From a virus, in the IMG/VR virus record IMGVR_UViG_3300045110_000366, positions 1-38,937 of that record: a stretch of 38,937 nt of DNA. One strand, written 5' to 3'. The notes under the pieces were generated by a model. The model did no database searches and was not told the origin of the DNA. It saw nothing but the letters and a program-made list of their open reading frames with translations. Every line of letters begins with the position of its first letter. Position 1 is the first letter of the stretch. Shown in pieces: positions 610 to 12,978 of the stretch. Both the position numbers and the translations under genes were made by a program.

Positions 610-707
610 ATCGGTTGCTCCTTTGGAGAGGCAAGCGCGTGCGGGCGCGAGGCCATTCGAACCCGCACGCGCCCTCATGCTGACGGAAGGGCAGAGGGAA
701 CGTACCG

Positions 708-1412
708 TCAGGCGTGAGCTTGGTTGCGGCGCCGCCGCTTCATAGCGAGACCCCAGAGGCCGATGCAGCCAGCGACGATTCCGGGGAAGCCGGCACCCGC
801 CACCGGCCCCGGCACTGCCACCAGCGGGCCGACCTCGATCCGGTAGTGCTCGAAATCGGTGATGGAGCCGCCGACGATCCGGATGTCCAGGTCGGTGATG
901 CGCTCGCCGTTGATGGCGGTGAGATCGAATCCCGATTGGGCAGTCGTCGAGAGTTGGAAGTCCGCGAGGGAAAACCCGGGAGTGAGGGGATTGAATTGAA
1001 ACGTCTTGCTGCTGCCGTCCGCTTCCAGGGCCGTCACCGTGATGAACGCGGTGCCGGTCCCCTTCAAGGAGAAGATGTCCCGGGTGGTGGTGACCAGACT
1101 GGTGTTCGTAGGGTCGAACACCCGGATATCGAGTTCGCTGCTGTTGACGATCTTGATGTCGTTGCCGTTGGCTGCCCCGGAGAAGATGCCGGCCAGGATG
1201 CCGCCGTCGAGGTTGAAGGCGGAGCGGTCCAGAAAGCGGACGACCTCGTCATGTTGGCCGCTGAGCCGGCCCAGGACCAAGCCAGTAGTAAGCTGGCTGA
1301 AGATGACGTTGTCGCCGGTGCCCCCTAGCCCGTGGGTATCGAGGATCACGTCGGCCTTGGCGGGCGCCGTCAGGGCGAGTGCAATGGCGGTAGCGAGTAG
1401 GTATCTACGCAT
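708..1412 (-). CDS. Secreted protein with PEP-CTERM-like sorting tail
   Basis: The 234-residue product has a signal peptide (MRRYLLATAIALALTAPAKA, cleavage probably after AKA). A Thr/Ser/Gly/Asp-rich beta-type domain follows. The last 35 residues have the three parts of an exosortase-type sorting signal: a Pro motif (VPGPVAGAGFPG), a hydrophobic helix (IVAGCIGLWGLA) and a basic end (MKRRRRNQAHA). The start has GAGGGG ten bases upstream. In bacteria such tails are processed by exosortase and the protein is moved to the surface or exopolysaccharide. No exosortase is seen here, so the host enzyme would be needed. The same motif ends the protein at 12424-12978; the middle domains are not obviously related. 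The role for the phage is unknown, and a surface cargo protein expressed early or from the prophage is an inference. Confidence 0.8.
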   Translation of the reverse strand: MRRYLLATAIALALTAPAKADVILDTHGLGGTGDNVIFSQLTTGLVLGRLSGQHDEVVRFLDRSAFNLDGGILAGIFSGAANGNDIKIVNSSELDIRVFDPTNTSLVTTTRDIFSLKGTGTAFITVTALEADGSSKTFQFNPLTPGFSLADFQLSTTAQSGFDLTAINGERITDLDIRIVGGSITDFEHYRIEVGPLVAVPGPVAGAGFPGIVAGCIGLWGLAMKRRRRNQAHA

Positions 1413-1427
1413 TGGGATATAACCCCT

Positions 1428-1634
1428 CTAAGGTTTAAGGTTCAGGTTTGTGTCGTTCGTGTTCCGTTGACGGTCATTGACCTCCTTTGCTTTGAGCAGC
1501 GCCTCCTCCTCCCATTCGACGAGTTCCATGATGGCAGCGTGATAGTCGTCCTCGGACATATCGCCGTTGAGCAACAGGCGCTCCAGGTGATCCAGCATCC
1601 GGTCCACGCGCTCATCAATCTCCTGCTCGGTCAT
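1428..1634 (-). CDS. Small acidic helical protein, 68 aa (paralogue of 3378-3569)
   Basis: The ATG at 1634 follows GAGGT with good spacing. The protein is highly charged and helical. Its core RVDRMLDHLERLLL-N-GDMSEDDYHAA closely matches RVDRMINHLDRLLANRDMSEEDYHKA in the gene at 3378-3569, and both continue with EWEEEAL. The two copies flank the recombination genes, so one arose by duplication. The pattern (helix, S-E-x-D-Y, second helix) is like short SHOCT-type helical hairpins that bind protein partners, but I cannot assign a family. It lies in the leftward operon, ten bases from its upstream neighbour. Confidence 0.75.
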   Translation of the reverse strand: MTEQEIDERVDRMLDHLERLLLNGDMSEDDYHAAIMELVEWEEEALLKAKEVNDRQRNTNDTNLNLKP

Positions 1635-1643
1635 CGGTTTACC

Positions 1644-1835
1644 TCAGCCGTCATTGGCTGGTTCGTTCTGTAGATTCGAAATACGGTCAAACTCTTTTGC
1701 AATCTCGTCATCGAGCCGGTCTCCGGAGCACGGCAGGAACGGGAGACGCCCGGCCATGTACTCGCACAACTGGCGACGCGAGATGATGTCGACCTTCACA
1801 CGCAGGTTCTGTAGCCGCCGCCGACCGTCGATCAT
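1644..1835 (-). CDS. Hypothetical protein, 63 aa
   Basis: This short gene starts 12 bases after the stop of the RecT-like gene. GAGG (within the stop region) lies nine bases before the ATG at 1835. The sequence starts MIDGRRRLQNLRVKVDIISR and contains a Cys pair (RRQLCEYMAGRLPFLPC) and an acidic C-terminal helix. The frame is open upstream into the RecT-like gene, but that part is a shadow. Its position directly behind the annealing protein suggests an accessory recombination role, which is inference only. Confidence 0.65.
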   Translation of the reverse strand: MIDGRRRLQNLRVKVDIISRRQLCEYMAGRLPFLPCSGDRLDDEIAKEFDRISNLQNEPANDG

Positions 1836-1846
1836 TTCGGCAGTCC

Positions 1847-2590
1847 TCACGTCATCAGCCCTCGCAATTCGTCGCCCATCGCGTTGAGCCGCTCGCGTTC
1901 CTTGGCATTGCGGCTCTTGTAGAAAGTCTTGAAGGCGGCCTCGCCGCGCATGGCGGCCTCGCGTGCCATTTCCTCCAGCGACATGGCCGCCCCGCCCGCG
2001 TCGGTTTCGGTGTCGGACGGGGCGACCTGTTCCGCCATCGCGTTGTTCGGCGCGGGTGGCGGTACTTCTCCGGTCTCGGGATCGTGCGGCAGCATCGCAT
2101 TCGGCGCCGGCGCCGGCGGGCGGCGATGGGTGATCGGAATATCGGCAACTTCGGTTTCGTCGAGGAAACCCAGCCCGCACAGCGACAGCGTGGCGCGACG
2201 CTTGGCCTTGGTCTCGGCCTTCATCATGGCATTTGCCAACACCTCGCCCTTGAGGTTGGCAATGGCGACCGCGCCCTTGGCGATGTCGGTGCGGCCATCC
2301 CGGTTGCGCACCTTGGCGGTGACAATGAACACGCCGTCGTGCTCGGTCTCGGTCAGCTCGTCGACCGAAACGCCGTGGATGGTCCGCAATTGATCGGTGC
2401 AATTGCGCAGCGCGTACAGCGTCAGTTTGTTGTTCAAGGTGATGTACTCGAATGGTTTGGTGAGTGGGTTAAGGCCGATACTTTCGCAAACAGCACCATA
2501 GTATTTCACCCGCTCGTCGGGCGTGAGCTTGGCGAGATCGCCCTTGACAATGACGCTCTCCATTATGTCGGTCTTGACGGGGATGTTCAT
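1847..2590 (-). CDS. Putative RecT-like single-strand annealing protein
   Basis: The 247-residue protein begins with a helical region (LTPDERVKYYGAVCESIGLN) followed by PLTKPFEYITLNNKLTLYA. A later block reads AMMKAETKAKRRATLSLCGL. That combination is typical of phage recombinases that anneal single strands (RecT/Redbeta-like), where a multi-Lys/Arg helix binds DNA. Residues about 155-205 are a Pro/Ala/Glu-rich linker, and the C-terminus is a charged helix. The start overlaps the end of the exonuclease gene by four bases (ATGA), which matches the usual exonuclease plus annealing-protein pairing. The assignment rests on motif memory and this pairing; an unrelated annealing family (ERF, Sak-type) is possible. 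Confidence 0.65.
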   Translation of the reverse strand: MNIPVKTDIMESVIVKGDLAKLTPDERVKYYGAVCESIGLNPLTKPFEYITLNNKLTLYALRNCTDQLRTIHGVSVDELTETEHDGVFIVTAKVRNRDGRTDIAKGAVAIANLKGEVLANAMMKAETKAKRRATLSLCGLGFLDETEVADIPITHRRPPAPAPNAMLPHDPETGEVPPPAPNNAMAEQVAPSDTETDAGGAAMSLEEMAREAAMRGEAAFKTFYKSRNAKERERLNAMGDELRGLMT

Positions 2591-3378
2591 GTGATTTCCC
2601 TTAGGCTGAGACGCCCGGCTCTATCCCTGGTTATCGCCACGCCGTAGCCGGTGCATTTCTTGGCGTCCGGCGGCACGATGGATTTGAGATACTTCTCGGC
2701 GTCGGCGCATTCGCGCGCGGTGGCCTTGGTCGCCAGCCAGGTAGCCGCGGCATTGGCCCAGAGATTCGAACCAGTCATGTCGTAATATTTCGACACATCG
2801 ACCGGCGCCGGGACGGCGGGCAGCGTCACCGGCGGCGTGCGGCGTTCTACAAACGCCATGAATTGCTGGCTGCGGCTGACCATCTCCCGAATGTATTCAT
2901 CGTCCCTATTGACGAACTCAACGACCGGCTCGCTGGCACCCATGATCACCGACAGCGCGCATTGCTTGGCGCCGGTGCATTCCATTTGCCAACCCATCTG
3001 CGGCCAGTAGCGGTCGATGATGACCTCGAGCGGCTCCCGTCCGCCGACGTGCTTGCCCTCGAACGGACACGCAAGCGCATCGATCCACCCATCCAGCGTG
3101 CAGGCCGCCCAGTCGTAATGGCGGTGAACAACGACCTCGCCGCGCCGAGTGACCGGCGTACGATTCTTGCGCTCAAACCAGTCGATGTTGAGCTGTTCGG
3201 TTGCGACGCCGAGCTGCACTGCCCACACGTCGGACAGGTCTTCCGGCACGAACGCCGGGTCGTCGGTCATCTCGAGATAGAGGTTCATGATCTTGGCGGC
3301 GTCGCCGGTCATCAGGCAGGCAACCCTGCTGGCCGTCAGCTTTCCGCGCCGCGCCGTGATCTGTTCTGGCGACAACAT
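2587..3378 (-). CDS. YqaJ-like PD-(D/E)XK exonuclease (phage recombination)
   Basis: The 263-residue protein has the order of a lambda-exonuclease/YqaJ fold: an N-terminal RxGKLTASRVA helix (residues 11-20), then D96/D100 in CTLDGWID, E107-x-K109 in PFEGKHV, and a Q/W helix at YWPQMGWQME (124-133). The D...ExK set is the metal-binding catalytic core. The expected role is 5'-3' resection of dsDNA ends to give single strands for the annealing protein encoded next. The start overlaps the preceding stop (TAATG). Length is normal for the family. Confidence 0.85.
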   Translation of the reverse strand: MLSPEQITARRGKLTASRVACLMTGDAAKIMNLYLEMTDDPAFVPEDLSDVWAVQLGVATEQLNIDWFERKNRTPVTRRGEVVVHRHYDWAACTLDGWIDALACPFEGKHVGGREPLEVIIDRYWPQMGWQMECTGAKQCALSVIMGASEPVVEFVNRDDEYIREMVSRSQQFMAFVERRTPPVTLPAVPAPVDVSKYYDMTGSNLWANAAATWLATKATARECADAEKYLKSIVPPDAKKCTGYGVAITRDRAGRLSLREIT

Positions 3379-3569
3379 TACTCAGCCTCGCCCCTGGCCC
3401 TCGACAGCGCCTCCTCTTCCCACTCGCACAATTCGCGCAGTGCCTTGTGGTAATCCTCCTCGCTCATGTCGCGGTTTGCCAATAGCCGATCGAGGTGGTT
3501 GATCATTCGGTCAACCCGTTGTTCGATCTCGCGCTCGCTCGTCGGCCAGGCATTGACGGTTATGTCCAT
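3378..3569 (-). CDS. Small acidic helical protein, 63 aa (paralogue of 1428-1634)
   Basis: I choose the ATG at 3569 over the GTG at 3584, because GGAG inside the longer version lies nine bases upstream and serves as its ribosome site. The start overlaps the stop of the winged-helix gene by ten bases. The core RVDRMINHLDRLLANRDMSE matches the gene at 1428-1634, as does the ending EWEEEAL. The stop overlaps the exonuclease start (TAATG), so expression is probably coupled to the recombination module. Function unknown. Confidence 0.75.
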   Translation of the reverse strand: MDITVNAWPTSEREIEQRVDRMINHLDRLLANRDMSEEDYHKALRELCEWEEEALSRARGEAE

Positions 3570-3820
3570 GTCGGCAAGCTCCACAGATAGAAACTGTGAG
3601 GGCTACCGCAGGTACGGCAGGCTGCGCCTCGTATCTCCTTCTCGAGCCGGCCATAGGCTGCGAGCTTCGAGCAGATCGACGTGACGGTGCTCAGTTTGGC
3701 GTCGAGCCGGTCGGCCAGTTGGCGTGACGTGAGCGGGGTGCCGACGCGCGTGAGCTCGTTGACGACGAGCAAGCGCATCGAGAACCCGTCACGATATGGC
3801 TTGGCGGCGGCGGCAGGCAT
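3560..3820 (-). CDS. Winged-helix DNA-binding protein with Cys pair, 86 aa
   Basis: Residues about 15-62 read as a winged helix: MRLLVVNELTRVGTPLTSRQ, then a recognition-helix-like stretch ADRLDAKLSTVTSICSKL and a turn AAYGRLEKE. The end holds CRTCGSPHSFYLW, a Cys pair of zinc-ribbon type with a terminal aromatic strand. GGGAG lies six bases before the ATG. Probably a small regulator or DNA-binding accessory in the leftward operon. The family is not named with certainty. Confidence 0.65.
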   Translation of the reverse strand: MPAAAAKPYRDGFSMRLLVVNELTRVGTPLTSRQLADRLDAKLSTVTSICSKLAAYGRLEKEIRGAACRTCGSPHSFYLWSLPTWT

Positions 3821-3843
3821 CGGCGGCTCCCGGCGCTCTATGG

Positions 3844-4101
3844 TTATGGTGCGTCTGGCGATGGCGCAGCCGCTGGAGCAGTGGTGGGGGCAGGTGCGGA
3901 TGCTTCAGCCGCCACTGCCGCAACTTCCTCGCCAGTTATGATTTCTGTTGCACGCTTGATGCGATCAAAATATTCAGACTCTGCCCTTTTGATTTGAGCA
4001 AGATAGATTTCGCGGGCACGCTCGACAGCATTGAGATGATTAAGTACGTTTACGTTCATACCTTTGACAGCCTTGGAGGCCTTTACGATTGCAGTGCTCA
4101 T
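3844..4101 (-). CDS. Hypothetical helical protein with Ala/Pro tail, 85 aa
   Basis: The start overlaps the stop of the upstream DUF3102-type gene (ATGA), which implies coupling. Residues 1-58 form a predicted amphipathic helix (HLNAVERAREIYLAQIKRAE). The last 25 residues are almost only Ala, Pro, Ser and Thr, a flexible tail. No catalytic motif is seen and the function is unknown. Confidence 0.7.
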   Translation of the reverse strand: MSTAIVKASKAVKGMNVNVLNHLNAVERAREIYLAQIKRAESEYFDRIKRATEIITGEEVAAVAAEASAPAPTTAPAAAPSPDAP

Positions 4102-4667
4102 ACGAATCTCCTGGTTGTTGCGATGTCTTTGAGTTGCTCGCGGACGGTATTCAGACGAGCCATGGCGTCTCTTGAGCCGCCTTGGTCTGGGTGAAGGCGC
4201 GTTGCCAACGCGCGGTAACCCAGGTCGATGAGTTTGAGAGCTAATTCCCGGTGCAGCCTGATCTCGGCATCGCGTGACTGCCGTTCATCGGCCAGCCGGT
4301 TGACGTTGACGTTAGCGGTAAAGTCGCGGATCGAACGAGCACTGCCGGTGCGGCGGGCCGCATCAGACTGACGCTCGCCGAGCGTCTGGTGAATTGTCTC
4401 GTGCACGAGGCCACCACTGCTCACGTGCTCAGCGAGTTTCATGTAGCGGTATGCTGTGTGCTTGCTCAGTTCAAAGTTCTGCGATAACCACTTGGTCCAA
4501 CCGCCGCTACCAGACACCTGCTCGCGGGCTTCCAGCAGCATTTCGCCAGCGCGCCGGTAGTGCTCCAGACCTGCCTGATCGGCAGCGCCCAACTCATTCT
4601 TGATCAACGGGACCAGAACCTTGAGCGGGCGCGATACTTGCGTTTTACGGACGACGGCGACGTTCAT
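4098..4667 (-). CDS. DUF3102-like protein with C-terminal J-domain-like HPD segment
   Basis: First gene of the leftward operon. The ATG at 4667 is preferred (189 residues); the frame also allows a start at 4703, but that lies inside the promoter. Residues about 15-90 match phage DUF3102 proteins: LVPLIKNELGAADQAGLEHY, then GGWTKWLSQNFELSKHTAYRYMKLAEHV, a helix-turn-helix-like stretch. The C-terminus reads YRALATRLHPDQGGSRDAMA, an HPD motif in the correct J-domain context (helix II, HPD loop, helix III), although helix I is poor. DUF3102 proteins are DNA-binding regulators or replication accessories in phages and plasmids. The HPD end suggests recruitment of host DnaK, but that is inference. 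Confidence 0.7.
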   Translation of the reverse strand: MNVAVVRKTQVSRPLKVLVPLIKNELGAADQAGLEHYRRAGEMLLEAREQVSGSGGWTKWLSQNFELSKHTAYRYMKLAEHVSSGGLVHETIHQTLGERQSDAARRTGSARSIRDFTANVNVNRLADERQSRDAEIRLHRELALKLIDLGYRALATRLHPDQGGSRDAMARLNTVREQLKDIATTRRFV

Positions 4668-4699
4668 GGTGGGGGGTGGCTCCCGGTGAATGTGGGAGC

Positions 4700-4729
4700 A
4701 CACTAATTCACAAAATGTGAATCTGTCAA
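4700..4729 (-). promoter_or_regulatory. Leftward early promoter (PL-like)
   Basis: On the minus strand a perfect -35 box TTGACA (4729-4724) is followed after 18 bases by TAGTGT (4705-4700) as -10; a 17-base alternative is TTAGTG. The spacer contains the palindrome at 4707-4721, so bound repressor would block polymerase. It reads into the gene starting at 4667. Confidence 0.6.
4707..4721. promoter_or_regulatory. Operator palindrome OL1 (TTCACAAAATGTGAA)
   Basis: A perfect 5-bp arm TTCAC, five-base spacer, GTGAA. It is one of four sites with the same arms in and around the repressor gene. It lies between the -35 and -10 of the leftward promoter. Confidence 0.75.
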
Positions 4730-4737
4730 CGATCTAT

Positions 4738-4752
4738 TTCACGTCGCGTGAA
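4738..4752. promoter_or_regulatory. Operator palindrome OL2 (TTCACGTCGCGTGAA)
   Basis: Same arms as OL1. Centre-to-centre distance is 31 bp, close to three helical turns, so the two bound dimers could sit on one face and contact each other. It lies upstream of the leftward -35 box and three bases from the repressor stop codon. Confidence 0.75.
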
Positions 4753-4754
4753 TT

Positions 4755-5084
4755 CTATTGCTTGGGCGTTTTCGGCCCTCTCCGGCCACGCGCCCGACTC
4801 AAGTCCACTGGGCCAAGGCGCTCGCGCGCGCGAATTTTTTCAAGCAAATCGCTAGGCAGGCGGCCACGATCGCCGTCGTAAACCCATTCGAACGTAAAGC
4901 CGTACTCGTCCTTGAGCCGATATACTGCGTCGACAGTGATGCGCCGCGTGCCCTCTGGGTTGACGTATTGTGACCATTGATTAGGGCGCAGCCCTGTGTT
5001 TTTGCAGAGTTCTGTGGCCGAGACGTCAAGAGCCTCCCGTGTCAACTCGAGCCGATAGGCAATGTCGCGCTGGCTTCTGGACAT
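4755..5084 (-). CDS. XRE-family repressor (CI-like), 109 aa
   Basis: Residues about 8-75 form a helix-turn-helix of the XRE/HTH_3 type: RLELTREALDVSATELCKNT, GLRPNQWSQYVNPE, RRITVDAVYRLKDEYG, then FTFEWVYDGD and a short basic tail. There is no LexA-type autocleavage domain (no Ala/Cys-Gly site, no Ser-Lys pair). If this is the lysogeny repressor it is not controlled by RecA cleavage, unlike lambda CI. It is transcribed away from the Cro-like gene and lies between the two operator pairs, the usual arrangement of a lysogeny switch. A Cys in the recognition region (ELCKN) is notable. Confidence 0.8.
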   Translation of the reverse strand: MSRSQRDIAYRLELTREALDVSATELCKNTGLRPNQWSQYVNPEGTRRITVDAVYRLKDEYGFTFEWVYDGDRGRLPSDLLEKIRARERLGPVDLSRARGRRGPKTPKQ

Positions 5085-5102
5085 AGCGGGATTGGCAGCC
5101 GG

Positions 5103-5117
5103 TTCACGTCTTGTGAA
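5103..5117. promoter_or_regulatory. Operator palindrome OR1 (TTCACGTCTTGTGAA)
   Basis: Same TTCAC/GTGAA arms as the leftward operators, located 18 bases before the repressor start. Binding here would probably control the repressor gene itself. A half site with the right arm only (CTTGTGAA, 5127-5134) follows. Confidence 0.75.
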
Positions 5118-5137
5118 AATCTCCTTCTTGTGAAATC

Positions 5138-5166
5138 TTGACTACTTCACGTAATGTGAATATCCA
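5138..5166 (+). promoter_or_regulatory. Rightward early promoter (PR-like)
   Basis: TTGACT (5138-5143), a 17-base spacer, then TATCCA (5161-5166). The spacer is almost exactly the operator at 5146-5160. A transcript started about seven bases after the -10 box would begin at or next to the ATG at 5172, giving a leaderless message. Confidence 0.65.
5146..5160. promoter_or_regulatory. Operator palindrome OR3 (TTCACGTAATGTGAA)
   Basis: Perfect arms. It fills the spacer of the rightward promoter in the same way that OL1 fills the spacer of the leftward promoter. Confidence 0.8.
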
Positions 5167-5171
5167 TAAGC

Positions 5172-5396
5172 ATGCTCACCACCGTCGACTCCGTCATTGA
5201 AGCTCTTGGTGGCCCGACCGCGACGGCAACTGTTGTTGGGGTTCGTCCGTCTGCGATCAGTAATTGGAAGACTCGCGGCAGTATCCCGTCCGACAAGTTC
5301 ATGCTTCTGGAGAGAGCCCTTGCCGACCGAGGCAAAGGCAAGCCATCGCCTGATCTCTTTGGATTTGAGACGCCATCCGAAGAGGCCGCATCTTAG
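5172..5396 (+). CDS. Cro-like (YdaS-type) HTH protein, 74 aa
   Basis: Short helix-turn-helix protein, MLTTVDSVIEALGGPTATAT, VVGVRPSAISNWKTRGSIPS, then a helix (DKFMLLERALADRGK). The AISNWKTRGSIP signature is that of YdaS/Cro proteins. It is divergent from the repressor and is the first gene after the rightward promoter, so it should oppose the repressor at the shared operators. No ribosome-binding site is seen; it is probably translated from a leaderless mRNA. Confidence 0.8.
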   Translation: MLTTVDSVIEALGGPTATATVVGVRPSAISNWKTRGSIPSDKFMLLERALADRGKGKPSPDLFGFETPSEEAAS

Positions 5397-5415
5397 CAAC
5401 GGAGTGGAGCTGCTC

Positions 5416-5928
5416 ATGCGCACTACATTCCGCACCGCCGCCGTTTCAGCAAATCAGGGGAGTGGCGAAATGTGCACCGTTCTGGGCACATCGCGGCACC
5501 TGAATTCCACGATAGCCCAATGTTTGCGAGCCATTTTCCCGAGCAAGACGTGGCTGCGATTGATCGAATTGACCGGCCTTTCGGAGCGCACCGCCAAGTA
5601 TCGTATGAGCGGAGAACGTGATTTCAGCGCCAGCGAATTAGCCGCGCTTCTACGCTCCGAGCACGGGCTCGACTTCCTCGCCGCCATCATGGCCGACGCC
5701 AGCCCGCGATGGTGGGTGCAGGTCCAATCCGCATTCAAGCTCGGCGCCATGCGCCGCCACCGGCAGCAACTGCAAGAGGCAATCCATGAAGCCGAGCGGT
5801 TGGGGTACACGCTGGCCCGAGCGGAAACTGCCTTGGGCGTTTGCGATGAGGACTTCCATCGCCCTCAGACTGATGCGCTGGGGGCGATCCGCAGCAATAT
5901 GCATCGCCCCATGGCTCGCAAACGATGA
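5416..5928 (+). CDS. Putative phage regulator with HTH, 170 aa
   Basis: The ATG at 5416 has GGAGC five bases upstream. The frame is open further 5' across the Cro-like gene, but that part is a shadow. Residues about 40-80 (TWLRLIELTGLSERTAKYRM, then FSASELAALLRSEHGLDFLA) read as a helix-turn-helix with a companion helix bundle. Residues about 90-140 form a long charged helix (RRHRQQLQEAIHEAERLGYT). Directly downstream of the Cro-like gene, it could be a CII-like or O-like early regulator. No specific family is claimed. Confidence 0.65.
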   Translation: MRTTFRTAAVSANQGSGEMCTVLGTSRHLNSTIAQCLRAIFPSKTWLRLIELTGLSERTAKYRMSGERDFSASELAALLRSEHGLDFLAAIMADASPRWWVQVQSAFKLGAMRRHRQQLQEAIHEAERLGYTLARAETALGVCDEDFHRPQTDALGAIRSNMHRPMARKR

Positions 5929-5943
5929 TGGGGAGGGGCGGCC

Positions 5944-6567
5944 ATGAATCGCACTCTCGTCAGATACGATGCGATGTGCCGCGCAATTGCCGAAGCGCAC
6001 AAGGTCGACGAGGTCAAAGACATTCGCGACAAAGCCTTGGCGCTTGAAGCCTATGCGCGCCAGGCATTGAACACCGACGCTGAACGCGAAGCCTGTGAAA
6101 TTCGCCTGCGTGCCGAGCGCAAGGCCGGGCAATTGTTGGCAGTGATGCCGAAGCAACAGGGCGCGCGTGGTGTGGGTAAAAAAGTGGCCTCGACAGAGAC
6201 GAGGCCACTCGCGGATCTCGGCATCTCCTACGACCAGTCTTCGCAATGGCAGAAGCTCGGCGCCATGCCGGACGAGGACTTTGAGTTGGCGATCGGAACG
6301 AAAACCTCGAAGCCCTCGACCAACGGCATCTTAAGGGGGGCGGTTCCTCCATCGGAAAGGTTTGTGGTTTCAAAAGATGCGCTTTGGCTCTGGGGCCGGC
6401 TGCGCGATTTCACCACCGAGGAATGGCTCGCCAAGTCACCTGCCGATGTGATGTCGACCATGACTTCCGAAATGAAAGACGACGTTCACAGATTCGCGCC
6501 GCGGTTTGCGGCGTGGCTCAAGCAAATAGGGGCGTTACATGACAAAAGAGGAAAGCCAACTTGCTGA
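5944..6567 (+). CDS. Conserved phage protein, coiled-coil N-terminus, 207 aa
   Basis: Strong GGGAGGGG ribosome site before the ATG. Residues 5-65 (AIAEAHKVDEVKDIRDKALA, then CEIRLRAERKAGQLLAVM) form an extended helix common to many temperate-phage early proteins of unknown function. Then comes LADLGISYDQSSQWQKLGAM, an HTH-like block that may contact DNA. The C-terminal third is helical. The pattern is seen near replication genes in other phages (memory, not searched). Its end overlaps the next gene by 29 bases. Confidence 0.65.
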   Translation: MNRTLVRYDAMCRAIAEAHKVDEVKDIRDKALALEAYARQALNTDAEREACEIRLRAERKAGQLLAVMPKQQGARGVGKKVASTETRPLADLGISYDQSSQWQKLGAMPDEDFELAIGTKTSKPSTNGILRGAVPPSERFVVSKDALWLWGRLRDFTTEEWLAKSPADVMSTMTSEMKDDVHRFAPRFAAWLKQIGALHDKRGKPTC

Positions 6568-6982
6568 GATAGTCGCACGCATTATCGATATCCGACGCGC
6601 GGAGGTTCGCATCAATCCATCGTGGATTGCCACCGAAGCGTTGAAAGAGATTGACCCGGCCAACCGTTCACATCCGTTGGTTCGGACCGGCTGTCATTTA
6701 CAATTGCGCCAGATTGCTCGCGCACAATGTCGCAAGCTATTCGAGGATGATGACGGCGAAGACGATAGCGAGCCCCTTTTCACCGGTTTTAAGCAATTGC
6801 AATGGCGATATCCGGCGGCCCATTCAAAGGGCAAACCCGAGCCGGAATATGTGCTGCTCGACCAACTGAGCCGCGCTGATGTTGAATACAACGCTCGGCG
6901 GCTTCGTCTCGAAGGGCACGCCAAACTCGAACATGCCGACGCGCTCGAAGCGTGGGACCGTGCGCGACGTGGTGCTGCGTAG
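6539..6982 (+). CDS. Hypothetical early protein, 147 aa
   Basis: Overlaps the previous gene's end, starting at ATG 6539. It has an N-terminal helix (MTKEESQLAEIVARIIDIRR), a His/Cys-containing segment (RSHPLVRTGCHLQLRQIARA), an acidic run (FEDDDGEDDSE) and a C-terminal charged helix. No motif is diagnostic. It belongs to the early rightward operon by position and coupling. Confidence 0.65.
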   Translation: MTKEESQLAEIVARIIDIRRAEVRINPSWIATEALKEIDPANRSHPLVRTGCHLQLRQIARAQCRKLFEDDDGEDDSEPLFTGFKQLQWRYPAAHSKGKPEPEYVLLDQLSRADVEYNARRLRLEGHAKLEHADALEAWDRARRGAA

Positions 6983-6991
6983 GGGCGGCCC

Positions 6992-7267
6992 ATGGTGGAT
7001 GTCTGCCAGGCGTGCGGCCAGCCCATCCGCTTCCTGCGCTGCGGCATCCGGCTGCCGGCGCACAAGGCCGCGATCTTCGACCTGATCAAGCGCGCGGGTG
7101 ACCTCGGCATCTCAAGCGAGGAGATCACGCGCGAGCTCTACGGCGACCGCAGGCCGGTGAGCAAGTACACCATCAAGGCGCACGTCTGGCAGATCAACGA
7201 GCTGCTGGCCGACACCAGCTATTGCATCGTGTCCGACCGGCGCAGTTGGTTTCTGCGAAAAGCATGA
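6992..7267 (+). CDS. Small winged-helix protein with Cys motif, 91 aa
   Basis: Starts MVDVCQACGQPIRFLRCG (CxxC plus a third Cys). This is followed by a winged-helix pattern (HKAAIFDLIKRAGDLGISSE, ELYGDRRPVSKYTIKAHVWQ, INELL) ending in strands CIVSDRRSWFL. The segment resembles the C-terminal DNA-binding domain of OmpR-type regulators. Its stop overlaps the methyltransferase start (ATGA), so it could regulate or assist that gene. Confidence 0.65.
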   Translation: MVDVCQACGQPIRFLRCGIRLPAHKAAIFDLIKRAGDLGISSEEITRELYGDRRPVSKYTIKAHVWQINELLADTSYCIVSDRRSWFLRKA

Positions 7268-8361
7268 AAGTAGCTTATTACAATGAGATTGATAGGTATG
7301 CCGCTCAATGGCTCAGAAACCTTATCGATGCCGGACACATCGCACGAGGCGATGTCGACGAGCGATCAATTGTCGATGTTTCCGCCGACGACCTCGCCGG
7401 ATATTCCCAATGCCACTTCTTTGCCGGCATCGGCGGTTGGTCCTACGCATTGCGCCTCGCCGGATGGCCAGACACGCGACCTGCTTGGACCGGCTCCTGC
7501 CCCTGCCAGCCGTTTAGCGCCGCCGGCAAAGGAGGCGGTGGCAAGGACGAGCGGCACCTATGGCCGCATTGGTTCCGTCTCATCCGCGAGCGAAAGCCTG
7601 CAATCGTCTTTGGCGAGAATGTTGCGGCAGCGGTTGGATGGGGTTGGCTCGACGCTGTTCTCGGCGACCTGGAAGCGGAAGGTTACGCCACGGGGTCGGC
7701 CGTACTGGGAGCACACAGCGTCGGCGCGCCGCATATCCGGCAGCGATTGTGGTTCGTGGCCCACCACGACGGTGGCGGACACTTGGCAACCGTCAACGCA
7801 GGAGAGCATCGACCACGAGGTGGAGAAGCACAACCTGCGGGGCGTCTGCCATCTGGCCTCGTGGCCGACGCCGCAACTAGCGGACGGCGAGCGCGGCTCG
7901 CTCACGATGATGCGCCGCGAGACGAACTACACGTTACTGGGCGCGGCAACGCTGGCCTCGTGGCCGACGCCGACGCAGCAGGAAAGCGCCTCGAGCGGGG
8001 CGGCGGGCTACTCGACGGAGAGCGGGCGGCATTCAGGGACGACGCTGACGGACGCGGCGCGGGCGAGTTGGGCGACTCCAGCCCACCGGGACTGGAAGGA
8101 CACGCCGGGGATGGCGACGACCGGCGTCAACCCGGACGGCAGCGAGCGCACGCGGCAGGACCAGTTGCCGCGGCAGACCCACATGGTTTCTGGGACGACC
8201 TCGTCTGGCTCCCCTGCAGCGACGGAAAAGCGCGGCCAACTCAATCCGGCCTTTTCCCTTTGGCTCATGGGGTATCCGGCAGAGTGGGAAAGCTGCGCGC
8301 CGCAGGCAACGCGATCGTCGCGCAGTGCGCGGCCGAGTTCATAAGGGCGTGCATGCCATGA
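7264..8361 (+). CDS. C5 cytosine DNA methyltransferase
   Basis: 365 residues from the ATG at 7264, coupled to the previous gene. Motif I FAGIGG (53-58) binds AdoMet. Motif IV GSCPCQPFSAAG carries the catalytic Cys81, motif VI is ENV (118-120), motif VIII is IRQRLWFVA (158-166), and motif X is RAAGNAIVAQ near the C-terminus. All core motifs are present and in order. The target-recognition region (about 168-320) is low-complexity, with repeated LVADA units, and looks unlike a folded domain. Phage methyltransferases of this kind protect phage DNA from host restriction; no partner endonuclease of the same specificity is obvious, so it is probably an orphan. A second frame is open through almost the whole gene (see 7283-8344). 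Confidence 0.9.
   Translation: MKVAYYNEIDRYAAQWLRNLIDAGHIARGDVDERSIVDVSADDLAGYSQCHFFAGIGGWSYALRLAGWPDTRPAWTGSCPCQPFSAAGKGGGGKDERHLWPHWFRLIRERKPAIVFGENVAAAVGWGWLDAVLGDLEAEGYATGSAVLGAHSVGAPHIRQRLWFVAHHDGGGHLATVNAGEHRPRGGEAQPAGRLPSGLVADAATSGRRARLAHDDAPRDELHVTGRGNAGLVADADAAGKRLERGGGLLDGERAAFRDDADGRGAGELGDSSPPGLEGHAGDGDDRRQPGRQRAHAAGPVAAADPHGFWDDLVWLPCSDGKARPTQSGLFPLAHGVSGRVGKLRAAGNAIVAQCAAEFIRACMP
7283..8344 (+). other. Long alternative open frame inside the methyltransferase gene
   Basis: A 353-codon frame, shifted one base relative to the methyltransferase, stays open across the gene. It reads as an ordered protein: Ser/Pro-rich N-terminus, then GVGSTLFSATWKRKVTPRGR, four W(P/A)T modules (GSWPTTTVADTW, ASWPTPQLADG, ASWPTPTQQES, ASWATPAHRDW) and an end LNPAFSLWLMGYPAEWESC. 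From memory, stand-alone hypothetical proteins with this kind of sequence are deposited from other phages. High-GC coding often leaves such frames open by chance, so translation is unproven. No ribosome site is evident at the first ATG. Confidence 0.3.
7853..7971 (+). repeat. Direct repeat of 20 bp inside the methyltransferase target region
   Basis: CTGGCCTCGTGGCCGACGCC occurs at 7853-7872 and 7952-7971, 99 bp apart (33 codons). It encodes GLVADA in the methyltransferase frame and LASWPTP in the alternative frame. A diverged relative appears at about 8068 (encoding ASWATP). Confidence 0.8.
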
Positions 8362-8792
8362 GCGGACGGCAATTGCATCTGTTCCGTGCGCGCAACCAGC
8401 GCGGTGTTGCAGCGCCACCGCCGCTGGAATTCGCGACGCAGTGCGCGCTCGCTGACACGCTGCGGAAATGGGCGACGCCAAACTGGGTGTGGACGCACAT
8501 ACCACTCGGCGAAAAGCGCGACGATGTTACCGGCGGACGCCTTAAGCGGATGGGCACGCAGGCCGGCTGGCCGGACTTCATCCTCATTCCGCCGGCGGGG
8601 CCGAAATTTTGGCAGCGACCGCATTTCCTCGAGCTCAAGCGCCGCGGCGGAAAACTCACCACGCCGCAAGCCGGCTTCGCGCTGTGGTGCAAGCTCAACA
8701 ACTGCCCGCACGAGGTCTGCGATACCTACGACGCGGCGGTGAAGATCCTGCAGAGATGGGGTGCGCTGATGCACAGGGTGAAGGTGCAATGA
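8358..8792 (+). CDS. VRR-NUC domain nuclease
   Basis: 144 residues from the ATG at 8358, which overlaps the methyltransferase stop (ATGA). It has the PD-(D/E)XK core of VRR-NUC proteins: PPLEFATQCAL with E24, GTQAGWPDFILI with D73, then FLELKRRGGKLTTPQ with E92, K94 and Q104. Such small phage nucleases are thought to cut branched DNA intermediates. It lies between the methyltransferase and the DUF1376 gene, where several phages carry a replication or recombination nuclease. The frame extends upstream without support. Confidence 0.85.
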   Translation: MSGRQLHLFRARNQRGVAAPPPLEFATQCALADTLRKWATPNWVWTHIPLGEKRDDVTGGRLKRMGTQAGWPDFILIPPAGPKFWQRPHFLELKRRGGKLTTPQAGFALWCKLNNCPHEVCDTYDAAVKILQRWGALMHRVKVQ

Positions 8793-8932
8793 CTAGCGCC
8801 ATGAACGCGGCTCAACTGGACCTCGCCTTAGCCTCGATGGAGGCGGTTCAAGGTAGCAATGCTATGCCACCAACGGAGCAATGCTACCGCAATGCTGGTA
8901 GCAATGCGGTAGCAACCCCGAGGCTGCCATGA
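8789..8932 (+). CDS. Small protein carrying the iteron-like repeats, 47 aa
   Basis: Start and stop both overlap neighbours by ATGA (8789 and 8929), which supports translation. The product is MTSAMNAAQLDLALASMEAV followed by a repeat-encoded tail with GSNAM and GSNAVAT, the same words found in the DUF1376 protein. The DNA of the tail is part of the repeat array, so its protein function may be secondary. Confidence 0.5.
   Translation: MTSAMNAAQLDLALASMEAVQGSNAMPPTEQCYRNAGSNAVATPRLP
8852..8918 (+). repeat. Iteron-like repeats, cluster A
   Basis: GGTAGCAATGC occurs at 8852-8862 and 8897-8907, with a shorter GGTAGCAA at 8908-8915. GCAATGCTACC, its near inverse, occurs at 8878-8888. The 30 bases 8889-8918 recur exactly at 9311-9340 in cluster B. 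Confidence 0.8.
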
Positions 8933-9621
8933 GCCTCCCGCGGATGTCCCTCCACATTGGAGATTACAAGAAGGACACCGGGCACCTCCGGGCTGCGGAG
9001 CACGGCGCTTATTTGCTATTGATCATGCACTATTGGGCCACTGGAGGGCTTCCTGATGACGACCGGCAGCTTGCCGTCATCGCCTGCATGAAGAACCGGG
9101 AGTGGAAGCAGTGGAAGCCGGTTCTGCAAGCCTTCTTTCACGACGGCTGGAAGCACAAACGGATAGACGAAGAATTGAGGCTTGCGCAGGAGAAGTACGA
9201 GAGGAGAGCAACAGCGGGTGCGAGCGGAGGCAATGCTACGCAAAACAGGAAGCAAAAAGGTAGCAATGCTGCGCCACCGACGCAGCAATGCGGTAGCAAT
9301 GCGGTAGCAAGCAATGCTGGTAGCAATGCGGTAGCAACCCTAACCCTAACCAATAAAGAAGAAGCTAAAGCTTCTTCTTCGCGCGCGCGCGCGCGAGAAA
9401 GCGGAGGACCTTCGGTTTTGAAGGAAAAAAGCGAAGCTCGGAAGGAAAAACGCGCGCGCGTTCAGGCAGATACGCCGCAATGGGATGCATGGCAGGCGCA
9501 CTTAAAGGCGAGCAAAGGCAAGGGCTCGCCCTGCGATAAGCAATTCGGCTGGTACTTTCCCACTGAATGGCCGCCTGGGTATCAGCCCGCACCGGATGGC
9601 AAATCTCGTGAAACAGACTAG
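8929..9621 (+). CDS. DUF1376 (YdaU-like) replication-associated protein, 230 aa
   Basis: The N-terminal 85 residues match DUF1376: MSLPRMSLHIGDYKKDTGHL, RAAEHGAYLLLIMHYWATGG, LPDDDRQLAVIACM, W..W.PVLQAFF. This winged-helix-like domain is shared with phage and primosomal replication initiators. The middle (about 105-145) is encoded by the repeats (KGSNAAPPTQQCGSNAVASN), then comes a basic Arg/Ala stretch and a C-terminal WDAWQAHLKASKGKGSP motif typical of the family. In many phages a DnaC-type loader follows; here none does. It is probably the initiator that recruits host DnaB, with the repeats as its binding sites (inference). Confidence 0.8.
   Translation: MSLPRMSLHIGDYKKDTGHLRAAEHGAYLLLIMHYWATGGLPDDDRQLAVIACMKNREWKQWKPVLQAFFHDGWKHKRIDEELRLAQEKYERRATAGASGGNATQNRKQKGSNAAPPTQQCGSNAVASNAGSNAVATLTLTNKEEAKASSSRARARESGGPSVLKEKSEARKEKRARVQADTPQWDAWQAHLKASKGKGSPCDKQFGWYFPTEWPPGYQPAPDGKSRETD
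9259..9340 (+). repeat. Iteron-like repeats, cluster B
   Basis: GGTAGCAATGC at 9259-9269, 9292-9302 and 9319-9329, with GGTAGCAA at 9303-9310 and 9330-9337. Units come in pairs 11 bp apart, one helical turn. The array lies inside the DUF1376 gene, where lambda-type phages keep their origin. Confidence 0.8.
9356..9395. repeat. Perfect inverted repeat followed by an alternating CG tract
   Basis: AAGAAGAAGCT (9356-9366) and its complement AGCTTCTTCTT (9369-9379) are separated by two bases. They are followed by 16 bases of alternating C and G (9380-9395). The first can form a hairpin or cruciform and the second is a classic Z-DNA-prone tract. Both are in frame in the DUF1376 gene, just after the iterons. 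Confidence 0.8.
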
Positions 9622-9769
9622 CGCGCACTTGGCGCAAAGCCACAACGCGCGAGGCCGGCCCATAAATTCGGGTCCGGGTGGCCCCATTTAGCCCGGCCCG
9701 ATAGGGGTGCGCTGGAACTTGTCAGGAGTCACGGCGCACCCCGACCACCCGCAGAGGAGCGCGAGGCCA
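9622..9769. other. Non-coding gap with inverted repeat
   Basis: No gene is seen. GGGGTGCGC (9704-9712) is the exact complement of GCGCACCCC (9734-9742), with a 21-base loop; upstream are further GGCC-rich short repeats. No T-run follows, so it is not a standard terminator. It could be a structured RNA, a transcript-stability element or part of the replication region. Confidence 0.5.
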
Positions 9770-9856
9770 ATGACCGAGACCCAGGAGCGCGTGGCCGTCG
9801 TGCTGACCATCGTGGCCGCAGCCGTCATCATCGTCCTGATGCTGGTGATGACATGA
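9770..9856 (+). CDS. Tiny membrane peptide, 28 aa
   Basis: MTETQERVAVV then a continuous hydrophobic helix to the end (LTIVAAAVIIVLMLVMT). GAGGAG and GAGG precede the ATG. The stop overlaps the next start (ATGA), which argues that it is translated. Single-pass membrane peptide of unknown function. Confidence 0.6.
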   Translation: MTETQERVAVVLTIVAAAVIIVLMLVMT

Positions 9857-10095
9857 GCCCCGGTGACATCGTGTTCTGGCGCGACGACCGTTTCGGCAAG
9901 CATCGCTTTTGGGAAATCCAGGGAATCTACCTTGGAGCCGAAGGCCAGGAGTCGATTGTTGAACTCAAGAACCTTCTTGAGAAACCAGGACGGGTGTCCG
10001 GCCACACAACGGCTTTTACGCACACGTTCGTGCCGGCGCCGCTGCTGCGGAATCTGGCGATCTACACCCCGGTCGAGGTTGAAAATGCAAACTAA
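9853..10095 (+). CDS. Hypothetical protein, 80 aa
   Basis: Begins MSPGDIVFWRDDRFGKHRFW, with alternating hydrophobic strands, suggesting a small beta-barrel (SH3/KOW-like). The start overlaps the 28-residue membrane peptide and the end overlaps the next zinc-ribbon gene. Function unknown. Confidence 0.65.
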   Translation: MSPGDIVFWRDDRFGKHRFWEIQGIYLGAEGQESIVELKNLLEKPGRVSGHTTAFTHTFVPAPLLRNLAIYTPVEVENAN

Positions 10096-10261
10096 GCGCG
10101 AGTGGTATGAGCGTCACGACTGCACGCATGCCCATTGCCCGCATGACTGCGAGCACCCGCAGCCGATCCTCGACGGCGCCGAACTGCTGTGCCTGCGCTG
10201 TCTGACCTTCGAGGGCCGGCGCACGCCGATGATCCCGTGCACGTCGGAGACATGCACATGA
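10085..10261 (+). CDS. Cys/His-rich zinc-ribbon-like protein, 58 aa
   Basis: GAGG precedes the ATG at 10085. It contains HDCTHAHCPHDCEHPQP and then LLCLRC and PCTSETC: seven Cys and several His in 58 residues, which indicates zinc binding. Related short proteins occur in other Rhizobiales phages (memory). It overlaps the previous gene by 11 bases and the TSCPD gene by ATGA. Confidence 0.7.
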   Translation: MQTKREWYERHDCTHAHCPHDCEHPQPILDGAELLCLRCLTFEGRRTPMIPCTSETCT

Positions 10262-10563
10262 GCCGCCGGACCCTGCCGCAGCGCCGCGCCGCCGAAACCT
10301 TCGAGCTGCGGCACGGCCAGCAGATCGTGACCGTCACCACCGGCTACTACGCCGACGGCAGCCTCGGTGAGGTGTTCTTGAGCGCGCCCAAGGCTGGCAG
10401 CAGCATGGAGGCGATCGCCCGCGACGCTGCGGTGCTTATCAGCATAGCAGTACAACATCATGTGCCACTCCAGATCATGCAAAATGCAGTTACGCGAGAA
10501 ACAAATGGAGCAGCGTCGAGCGTTATTGGTGCCGTTTTAGATCGACTTGTAGAGAGGGAGTAA
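10258..10563 (+). CDS. TSCPD-domain protein, 101 aa (3' end replaced)
   Basis: Matches TSCPD proteins: FELRHGQQIVTVTTGYYADG, SLGEVFLSAPKAGSSMEAIA, RDAAVLISIAVQHHVPL, then a C-terminal segment TRETNGAASSVIGAVLDRL. The domain is otherwise found at the end of B12-dependent ribonucleotide reductases and as single phage proteins; no reductase partner is seen. From about 10432 the codons become AT-rich (ctt atc agc ata gca gta), unlike the first two thirds. A second, GC-rich version of the same C-terminus lies after the HNH gene (11136-11267). So the 3' end was apparently replaced with the HNH cassette. Confidence 0.8.
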   Translation: MSRRTLPQRRAAETFELRHGQQIVTVTTGYYADGSLGEVFLSAPKAGSSMEAIARDAAVLISIAVQHHVPLQIMQNAVTRETNGAASSVIGAVLDRLVERE

Positions 10564-10568
10564 AGCAG

Positions 10569-11135
10569 ATGGGTCTCTTCCAAAATCTAACTGGTCAGAA
10601 ATTCGCGCGACTGACGGTAATAAGCTTAAACCGGACGACAGGTCGCACCGGACCGTATCCGCGCGGGACGTTTTGGAATTGTCGCTGTGATTGCGGTAAT
10701 CCGAGCGTCGTCTTGGCACCTCATTTAAAAAACGGAAATACAAAATCGTGCGGATGTTTATGTGAAGAGATGCGCCCAATTCTGCGCCGTAAGCATGGGC
10801 AGGCAAACAAGACGGCAGAGTATATCACTTGGCTTAATATGAAGGCTCGATGTCTGAATTCACGGTCTGATAATTTTAAATTCTATGGTGGACGAGGGAT
10901 CAAGGTCTGTCAGCGATGGATTGACAGCTTTGAAACGTTTCTTGCTGACGTTGGCTCACGACCTGGACCTGAGCATTCGCTTGATAGATACCCCGATAAC
11001 AACGGGAGCTATCAACCAGGAAATGTGCGATGGGCAACAAAGAAAGAGCAGAGCGACAATCGCCGCAAACGAACAAACTTTCCAATGCGGGATCACGGCC
11101 GATACATCCGCGCGCCAAATCAGTTCTCGGGGTAA
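10569..11135 (+). CDS. HNH homing-type endonuclease, 188 aa
   Basis: A free-standing HNH/AP2-like endonuclease. It has an N-terminal LTGQKFARLTVIS, a CRCDCGN and CGC zinc element (CRCDCGNPSV...TKSCGCLCEE), the core YITWLNMKARC with FYGGRGIKVCQRW, SLDRYPDNNGSYQPGNVRWA (HNH-type metal site) and a C-terminal NRR helix. Its base composition is clearly more AT-rich than the genome. It starts five bases after the TSCPD stop. A relative sits behind the amidase (35633-36154). Both are probably mobile and selfish. Confidence 0.85.
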   Translation: MGLFQNLTGQKFARLTVISLNRTTGRTGPYPRGTFWNCRCDCGNPSVVLAPHLKNGNTKSCGCLCEEMRPILRRKHGQANKTAEYITWLNMKARCLNSRSDNFKFYGGRGIKVCQRWIDSFETFLADVGSRPGPEHSLDRYPDNNGSYQPGNVRWATKKEQSDNRRKRTNFPMRDHGRYIRAPNQFSG

Positions 11136-11267
11136 CCCTTGCGCCACGCGATCACCCGCGAGGAGGACGGCTCGGCCTCGAGCATCATCGGCGCGGTGAT
11201 CGATCGGCTTCAGGCGTCAACGACGCCGTCTTTGACGGCTGGAGCGGATGTTTCACGTGGAAACTGA
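11136..11267 (+). pseudogene. Displaced 3' end of the TSCPD gene
   Basis: Without its own start, the frame reads PLRHAITREEDGSASSIIGA then VIDRLQASTT and stops at 11265-11267. The live gene ends with PL..NAVTRETNGAASSVIG AVLDRL. The two differ at most codons but agree in protein sequence, and this copy has the genome's usual GC-rich codons. It is the original 3' end, left behind when the HNH cassette brought its own version. Confidence 0.75.
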
Positions 11268-11271
11268 GATG

Positions 11272-11541
11272 CTAGAAGAACTTCAGGCTTGCCAGAATTG
11301 CGACGACGGCGGCTGCCATCAGCCCGCCGCGCACGGTCAGGTCGTATTTGAGCGCAGCAATCTCCTGTCGCACGTCGGATCGCAACGCCGCGATGTCGGA
11401 TTTCGTCGCAACGCCCGATCGCAGCGCATCCTCCATCGCATCGGCGTGCGCACGCGCCTGATCGGCGCCAATGCCGGCGCTGGTGAGCCGGTCGACGTAG
11501 CGCAGCCGGTCGAACAATGGGGGCGAGTCGGCGGTGGTCAT
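11272..11541 (-). CDS. DUF1640-like coiled-coil membrane protein, 89 aa
   Basis: Opposite strand to its neighbours. The sequence LFDRLRYVDRLTSAGIGADQ, ARAHADAMEDALRSGVATKSD, a short coiled coil, then GLMAAAVVAILASLKFF (single membrane helix at the end) is the CCDC90/DUF1640 pattern. The role of bacterial DUF1640 proteins is unknown. A lone reverse gene between the early and late blocks is typical of cargo (moron) genes. Its own promoter is not evident. Confidence 0.7.
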   Translation of the reverse strand: MTTADSPPLFDRLRYVDRLTSAGIGADQARAHADAMEDALRSGVATKSDIAALRSDVRQEIAALKYDLTVRGGLMAAAVVAILASLKFF

Positions 11542-11573
11542 GATCGGTACTGTAGCCCCAACAGCACTGCAGG

Positions 11574-11579
11574 TAAAAT
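11574..11579 (+). promoter_or_regulatory. Possible -10 box before the NusG-like gene
   Basis: TAAAAT 12 bases before the ATG at 11592, in the gap between divergent genes. The -35 position (TGTAGC at 11551) is poor, so activation or extended recognition would be needed. A weak call. Confidence 0.25.
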
Positions 11580-11591
11580 AGGGAATTTACT

Positions 11592-12107
11592 ATGACCTAC
11601 TGGGCCATCGCGCAGGTTCAGCCCCAGCGGCTGGCAATCACCGGAACGCTGCTCGATCGTGCGGGGTACGAAATCTACGCGCCCCGCGTCCGCACCCGTC
11701 GCCAAGCAACCGTGCCTGGCGGTCTCTCCTCGCTGCTGTTCCCAGGCTACCTGTTCGTGCACATCACCGACGGCCGGTTCTATCCGGTGCGCTACACGCC
11801 CGGCGTCGTGCGTCTGTTGATGACCGGCGAATGTCCCGCGCGCATGCCGGACCGCGAGATCGACGGCCTGCGACGGCGCGAGGTCAAAGGTTTCATCTGG
11901 CTGCCGCCGCGGGTTCCTCAGATCGGCGCCAGGATGCGGATCATCAGCGGTCCCTTCGCCGGGCACCTCGCCCTGTTCGAGGGCATGGCCGGCGCCGATC
12001 GACTGCGCGTCCTGTTCGATTTTCTGGGCGGCGTGGTGCGGACCGAGCTCCCCTGGCACGCGGTGGAGCCACAAGATGTTGCAATCAACCGTGGTTTGAG
12101 ATACTAG
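11592..12107 (+). CDS. NusG/RfaH-like transcription elongation factor
   Basis: 171 residues with the NGN domain (YWAIAQVQPQRLAITGTLLD, RAGYEIYAPRVR, SLLFPGYLFVHI, YTPGVVRLL) and a C-terminal KOW domain (PPRVPQIGARMRIISGPFAG, LALFEGM, RLRVLFDFLGG, VRTELPWHAVEP). Such specialised NusG paralogues bind RNA polymerase and suppress termination and pausing in a long operon. It is the first rightward gene before the structured leader and the whole structural operon, which fits antitermination of late transcription. AGGGA lies seven bases before the ATG. Length is normal for the family. Confidence 0.85.
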   Translation: MTYWAIAQVQPQRLAITGTLLDRAGYEIYAPRVRTRRQATVPGGLSSLLFPGYLFVHITDGRFYPVRYTPGVVRLLMTGECPARMPDREIDGLRRREVKGFIWLPPRVPQIGARMRIISGPFAGHLALFEGMAGADRLRVLFDFLGGVVRTELPWHAVEPQDVAINRGLRY

Positions 12108-12423
12108 CGGTTTTCCACCCTGCCACGGCAAGCGATTGAATTTGCAAAGGGAAGCCCCAAAAACCGGGCGACCCCAAGTGCAGAGCATTTTCGCAAGCAC
12201 AACGAAATCGGCGCCGAGAGGCCCGTGGCAGGCTGTTTTCCTCGTCGTCGTCGGGTCGTGCCTGTGCTGCCCTGCAGGCACGGCCCGCCCCCACAAACGG
12301 GCTAGGAACGCCGCTGGTGCGTTTCCGGGGAACCGGGGCGTCCGAGAGCCCACCCGCCCAGCAAAACGCACCACGGGCCCCCTGGCGGGCTGGCATCATC
12401 CATAAACCAGAGGAGCCCCACCT
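12108..12423. other. Structured 316-bp leader between NusG-like gene and late genes
   Basis: No gene is seen. CGTGCCTG (12257-12264) and CAGGCACG (12275-12282) form a hairpin stem with a 10-base loop. TGGTGCGTTT (12315-12324) and AAACGCACCA (12364-12373) form a second, wider stem. CCACGGGCCCC and GGCGGGC stretches follow. There is no clean T-run. A regulatory leader or recruitment site for the NusG-like protein is plausible. The last 16 bases hold AGAGGAG, the ribosome site for the next gene. Confidence 0.5.
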
Positions 12424-12978
12424 ATGAGGACGTGGTTACTTGCATTCGCGATTGTTCTGGCCATGCCGGCGTCGGGCAAAGCTGCCACCATCGCCGACCT
12501 CGGCGACAATCCAACCTCGGCCACTGGCCACTTCAGCAACAATGTCGGAGGAACGACGTTCGCCGATCAGTATACGTTCAACCTGACTGGCGCACCGCAA
12601 TTCATCGCCTTCGCGTCGGCGACAAATGACTTCATCTCGCCAGCCGACTTCATCACCTCGTTCACAGGACAGCTCTTCAACTCCGGCCCCAACAACGTAC
12701 CTGGAGGTGGAGACGACTTTGCCGTCAATCCTGCGGTGCTTGCTGTTGCATGCCCGACGAACCCCCTGGGGTGTCAGGTCTTGGCTGGTACGGCCCTGCT
12801 CGATGCCGGTCATTATTTTCTGAACCTGACTGGTACTGGCGGCGGTACGGCTGGCTATGGCGGTGATCTCACCAGCCGTGCCGTGCCAGGGCCAATCGCT
12901 GGTGCAGGATTCCCTGGGCTGGCGATGGCAATCGCGGGCTTGCTGCTCTGGGGGCGACGCCGTCGTCACCCCACGTGA
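12424..12978 (+). CDS. Secreted protein with PEP-CTERM-like sorting tail (second)
   Basis: 184 residues. Signal peptide MRTWLLAFAIVLAMPASGKA, cleavage probably after GKA. The mature domain is beta-rich with many Asn/Thr/Gly and a Cys pair (ACPTNPLGC). The C-terminus has AVPGPIAGAGFPG, a hydrophobic helix (LAMAIAGLLLWG) and RRRRHPT: the same layout and nearly the same Pro motif as the protein at 708-1412. The central part (SNNVGGTTFADQYTFNLTG and later AGHYFLNLTGTGGG) resembles domains of host PEP-CTERM proteins (memory). It is the first gene after the leader, so it is expressed late or as cargo. No exosortase is encoded. Confidence 0.8.
   Translation: MRTWLLAFAIVLAMPASGKAATIADLGDNPTSATGHFSNNVGGTTFADQYTFNLTGAPQFIAFASATNDFISPADFITSFTGQLFNSGPNNVPGGGDDFAVNPAVLAVACPTNPLGCQVLAGTALLDAGHYFLNLTGTGGGTAGYGGDLTSRAVPGPIAGAGFPGLAMAIAGLLLWGRRRRHPT

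Follow-up and report, generated by a model that had tools for sequence, protein, structure and literature searches.

The proteins encoded at the locus

The window analysed here is the whole virus record IMGVR_UViG_3300045110_000366, a linear sequence of 38,937 nucleotides (38.9 kb) carrying genes for a terminase large subunit (terL), a fused protease/capsid protein, a portal, a tape measure, an endolysin, an integrase and RecE. To judge from this gene content, the element is a temperate siphophage. Two of its genes, located far from each other and on opposite strands, encode the proteins designated here P0001 and P0002 (Table 1). The first lies at the left end of the window, beyond the recombination genes, and the second between the terminase genes and the gene of a NusG-like protein (Pfam NusG, E = 4.9e-11; phrog_6386, transcription antiterminator), which is perhaps a late-gene antiterminator. 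Promoters and terminators predicted around the P0001 gene score no better than those of shuffled sequences. The opposite arms of the window also each carry an HNH endonuclease gene (10569-11135 and 35633-36154), both matching phrog_374. A small protein beginning with MRARAGSNGLAPARA is encoded after the P0001 gene in the window (379-678, minus strand) and in two related loci (L032 and L043), and the copies of the window and of L043 include a hydrophobic segment.

Table 1. Features of the window that bear on P0001 and P0002
Feature	Position	Strand	Basis or remark
P0001, 234 aa: signal peptide, beta-sandwich domain, VPGPVAGAGFPG tail	708..1412	-	
Putative P0001 sorting tail, VPGPVAGAGFPGIVAGCIGLWGLAMKRRRRNQAHA	711..815	-	
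P0001 signal peptide, about residues 1-20/21, ending ...PAKA	1350..1412	-	sequence and model
RecE-like exonuclease	2587..3378	-	leftward gene cluster, upstream of P0001
NusG-like antiterminator	11592..12107	+	just before the P0002 and terminase genes; context for P0002 expression
P0002, 184 aa: signal peptide, PPC-like beta domain, VPGPIAGAGFPG tail	12424..12978	+	
P0002 signal peptide, about residues 1-20	12424..12483	+	sequence
Putative P0002 sorting tail, VPGPIAGAGFPGLAMAIAGLLLWGRRRRHPT	12883..12975	+	
Terminase large subunit	14002..15681	+	phage context
Integrase	36628..37659	-	points to a temperate life style

Both proteins start with a typical signal peptide (MRRYLLATAIALALTAPAKA/D in P0001, MRTWLLAFAIVLAMPASGKA/A in P0002) and end with the same succession of motif, hydrophobic helix and basic cluster, i.e. 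VPGPVAGAGFPG, a hydrophobic segment and KRRRRN in P0001, and VPGPIAGAGFPG, a hydrophobic segment and RRRR in P0002. The original prediction had described two secreted proteins of this kind, sharing a VPGP[VI]AGAGFPG motif followed by a helix and an arginine cluster and differing in their middle domains. Both open reading frames were found as described, their middle domains do differ, and a degenerate DNA pattern encoding VPGPxxGAGxPG has exactly two matches in the window, one in each of these genes, against a mean of 0.00 in 100 shuffles.

The architecture of the P0001 family, modelled with AlphaFold from 54 relatives (mean pLDDT 88), consists of a signal helix, an all-beta domain with a pLDDT above 90 over most of its length, a loose linker and a C-terminal helix (residues 209-232). 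P0001 matches no entry of Pfam, NCBIfam or PHROGs, a Pfam lipoprotein-site match (E = 1.9) being dismissed as noise, and a search of PDB sequences yielded no relative. In fold comparison, CBM29 and others match the model at a Z of about 7.6 (rmsd 3.6 over 120 residues, where the best background Z is 7-8); the body may weakly resemble carbohydrate-binding modules, at a level not above background. For P0002, which matches no Pfam family, the highest-ranked structures are collagenase PPC or collagen-binding domains (Z 9.7 with an rmsd of 2.4 over 96 residues, for a model with a pLDDT of 68).

Distribution and constraint of the two families and of the VPGP tail

At least 98 relatives of P0001 were confirmed in viral contigs, and 80 of them were retained. 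No relative of P0001 or of P0002 was detected among 50,697 named phages, and the consensus tail did not match any of them either, a result to be read knowing that such short queries may be masked. No P0001 relative occurs in another 189 genomes of the class, and a pattern-based scan of bacterial genomes yielded a single P0001-like fragment of 32 residues, which is not a gene, on a Rhizobium MAG contig. The family is thus found in viral contigs and is almost absent from genomes. The fragment itself (L083:1256-1348) is a remnant of the P0001 N-terminus located near a 947-aa open reading frame.

The neighbourhoods of the P0001-type genes are varied. Among 55 loci, with gene names assigned by eye, a helicase gene is found upstream in 15 and an amidase gene downstream in 10, and no other conserved neighbour was detected. 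Their location outside the structural operon and the variety of their surroundings fit accessory genes. An adjacent membrane gene was considered as a dedicated partner and then dropped, as a downstream open reading frame with a hydrophobic segment is present in only 11 of 52 loci, some of these being further tail proteins.

Relatives of P0002 are fewer, and nine were aligned. Each of the nine is similar over its whole length to the FxDxF PEP-CTERM family NF038126 of bacteria (best E = 6.7e-12). P0002 itself scores 37 bits, below the curated cut-off of 50 bits, and is therefore considered a relative and not a member; at the sequence level, it is a divergent relative of this family, from which it also differs by bearing a VPGP tail instead of a PEP one. 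In five other phages (L015, L059, L070, L071 and L076), a P0002-type gene directly follows a P0001-type gene. The original prediction would have been undermined if no related phage carried such a tail; the same pair, with adjacent genes, is found in these five, and more than 100 related phage sequences carry secreted proteins with such tails.

The scan of viral contigs with the tail pattern retrieved at least 118 stretches. In the loci that were fetched, all 183 in-frame VPGP motifs are located within 60 aa of a C-terminus, and the matches listed comprise at least 155 distinct tail proteins distributed over at least 19 body families; a simple hydropathy rule assigns a signal peptide to 146 of these 155. 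L202, a phage contig on which terminase- and portal-like genes are found, encodes proteins of two further body families (positions 3011-3688 and 8245-9045), whose VPGP tails are of the GLILASGGLLAWWRRRQKIG type and resemble those carried by contigs of a metagenome-assembled genome (MAG), G920.

The P0001 and P0002 genes are under purifying selection, with an overall dN/dS of about 0.12-0.32, every pair combining a high silent divergence with a low replacement divergence. When the window is compared with L014, the dN of the tail is 0.013 at a dS of 0.61, whereas that of the body reaches 0.32, which indicates that the tail has long been held constant and is not a recent copy. The reverse holds for other pairs, the window and L003 among them, whose tails are less conserved than their bodies, a pattern to be expected if hydrophobicity is the main requirement on the helix.

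Could these genes be captured bacterial PEP-CTERM genes devoid of any phage function, or the contigs be host DNA? The resemblance of the P0002 family to a bacterial family and the presence on MAG contigs of HAF-type bodies with a VPGP tail would agree with this explanation, which nevertheless appears very improbable given the full phage gene set of the window, the near-absence of the P0001 family from genomes and the low overall dN/dS.

Exchange of tails and their agreement within phages

Curated sorting models do not include the VPGP tail: none of them matches it, and the NCBIfam PEP-CTERM models do not match the P0001 of the window. They do match some of its relatives. Three tail types occur on the body of this family, VPGPxxGAGxPG in most members, PEPxxWA-CTERM (NF035944, E = 2.6e-9) and VPLPA-CTERM (TIGR03370, E = 5.4e-5). 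The Pfam PEP-CTERM model matches 10 of 54 members (best E = 5.4e-8), and 10-11 relatives match some curated model of this kind. The PEP-CTERM models, against which the original prediction had proposed to search both C-termini, thus match relatives of P0001, while P0001 itself gives no match and P0002 only the NF038126 one below its cut-off.

On a tree of 64 P0001-family bodies, the tail type changes nine times, and at least five of these changes are forced by well-supported branches. Hybrid tails such as VPGPVAGVPEPATWAMLL (L039 and L033) keep VPGPVAG before VPEPATWAMLL, and a second body family also includes both VPGP and VPLPA members (L202 and L074). The exchange with PEPxxWA-CTERM and VPLPA-CTERM, two recognised signals, speaks for a modular sorting function of the tail.

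Furthermore, the tails agree within phages. Eleven phages retrieved by means of the P0001 family, and not of the VPGP pattern, carry at least two tail proteins; in 10 of them all tails are of a single type, versus 5.4 after shuffling (p = 0.0008, a value to be taken as a guide given the small sample and the possible kinship of some phages). In L074, for example, two unrelated bodies bear nearly identical VPLPA tails. The exception is G978 (L266-L270), an 80.6 kb contig whose two P0001-family genes differ in tail type (VPGP in one, PEPxxWA in the other) and lie on opposite strands at a distance of about 10 kb; it possibly corresponds to two neighbouring prophages or to a phage with a broad host range. 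Taken together, these data suggest that phages fit the tail type to the sorting machinery of their host.

A simpler explanation would be that the tail is a mere C-terminal membrane anchor, which would keep the unprocessed domains in the periplasm, tethered to the inner membrane, where they could act, for example, in superinfection exclusion at DNA entry. Indeed, a signal peptide, a helix and an arginine cluster suffice for such a topology. A plain anchor does not, however, need a conserved VPGPxxGAGxPG motif, nor the near-total amino acid constraint seen between the window and L014, nor switches among recognised sorting classes that agree inside each phage, and we consider this explanation improbable.

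The putative host enzyme and the proposed sorting route

From what is established about these signals, PEPxxWA and VPLPA tails imply an exosortase in the host. None of the 49 viral records examined carries an exosortase gene, so that a host has to supply the enzyme. Exosortases (PF09721) were detected in 23 of 190 sampled Alphaproteobacteria. Proteins with VPGP tails, for which the original prediction had proposed a search of candidate hosts, were not found there: the pattern is absent from these 190 genomes of the class and from 249 genomes of the order, a search covering several families as well was mostly negative, and no sorting tail was confirmed among 398 genomes of the phylum, where the pattern matched twice and the match that was checked is out of frame. 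VPGP-type tails may occur in Bradyrhizobium.

The only real VPGP tails found in cellular genomes are carried by two MAGs, G920 (four tails) and G934 (one tail). The latter is borne by a HAF-repeat-like protein whose homologue in Eleftheria terrae is annotated as PEP-CTERM, VPGP thus standing again in place of PEP. Neither MAG, each consisting of hundreds of contigs and perhaps mixed, gave a match to PF09721, and five of six close relatives gave none either. For this reason, an exosortase acting on the VPGP variant is something that we infer. An exosortase-like gene is present in L311 (G892:C651), which belongs to a genome related to G920; it comes after an open frame of 826 residues that has a PEP-type tail at its own end.

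The missing PF09721 matches in the two MAGs, and the fact that the VPGP tail fits no curated model, would also agree with a signal for an enzyme other than an exosortase, such as an undescribed intramembrane protease, the phages with PEPxxWA or VPLPA tails using exosortases. Such enzymes have precedents in rhombosortase, for GlyGly-CTERM (PMC3237569), and myxosortase, for MYXO-CTERM (PMC11980579). Orthologous bodies nevertheless exchange VPGP for known exosortase tails, which is easiest with one enzyme class, and both MAGs are fragmented and possibly mixed. A distinct enzyme therefore seems unlikely, while deserving more credit than a plain anchor.

The reading that we favour, with a probability of roughly two in three, is that P0001 and P0002 are accessory phage proteins delivered through an exosortase-type route of the host, with tails matched to that host. 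It builds on the phage-borne family, its architecture, the exchangeability of its tails, their agreement within phages and the selection acting on the genes, as computed above. In keeping with what has been proposed for PEP-CTERM proteins (PMC1569441), they would be exported by Sec and retained by their tails, a host enzyme would cleave them at the motif, and the cleaved proteins would then be released to the surface or the matrix. The phage would provide only the substrates, and the host the enzyme; a same body domain would bear a VPGP, PEPxxWA or VPLPA tail depending on the phage, each matched to its host. The broader proposal of the original prediction, that the phage uses the export and sorting route of its host, appears well supported by the sequences at the level of a C-terminal sorting route, given the tails of the family, the recurrence of the pair in relatives and the exchange of tails; the exosortase part, for VPGP, stays conditional.

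The closest known system is the PEP-CTERM/exosortase system (EpsH, TIGR02602/PF09721) of Gram-negative bacteria (Haft 2006, PMC1569441). Both share a signal peptide, a proline-rich motif, a hydrophobic helix and a basic cluster, as well as diverse bodies mostly without any Pfam match, and several P0001 relatives score in the models of this system. Unlike in this system, the substrates are carried by phages devoid of their own enzyme, and the commonest motif, VPGPxxGAGxPG, belongs to no model. The PEPxxWA-CTERM and VPLPA-CTERM signals are found on P0001 orthologues in other phages, whereas the proteins of the window carry VPGP instead.

In line with the original prediction, which knew of no phage using this route, searches of the open literature on phages with PEP-CTERM, exosortase or VPLPA-CTERM, judged mostly by titles and abstracts, yielded no account of phage-borne substrates. 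The nearest parallel is SasX of Staphylococcus, a prophage-encoded LPXTG surface protein displayed on the lysogen through the C-terminal sorting route of the host. It differs in that it relies on a Gram-positive sortase, whereas the phages considered here carry Gram-negative exosortase-type tails on many body families.

The observation is more general than could be seen in the original prediction. Tentatively, temperate soil phages, probably of Alphaproteobacteria, may share a large set of surface proteins restricted to phages, with tails exchanged to fit the host enzyme, VPGPxxGAGxPG being a sorting class with an undescribed enzyme. P0001 may weakly resemble carbohydrate-binding modules and P0002 PPC domains; the most likely role, itself rather uncertain, would be that of surface-displayed binding domains altering the surface or the exopolysaccharide of the lysogen, for example by masking phage receptors. 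If the proposed route holds true, phages would alter the surface of Gram-negative soil bacteria at a large scale through the sorting machinery of these bacteria. The tail type would then be a host marker, the tail of a phage protein predicting the sorting enzyme and hence the clade that it infects, and one body carrying three different tails would offer a ready natural experiment on exosortase recognition.
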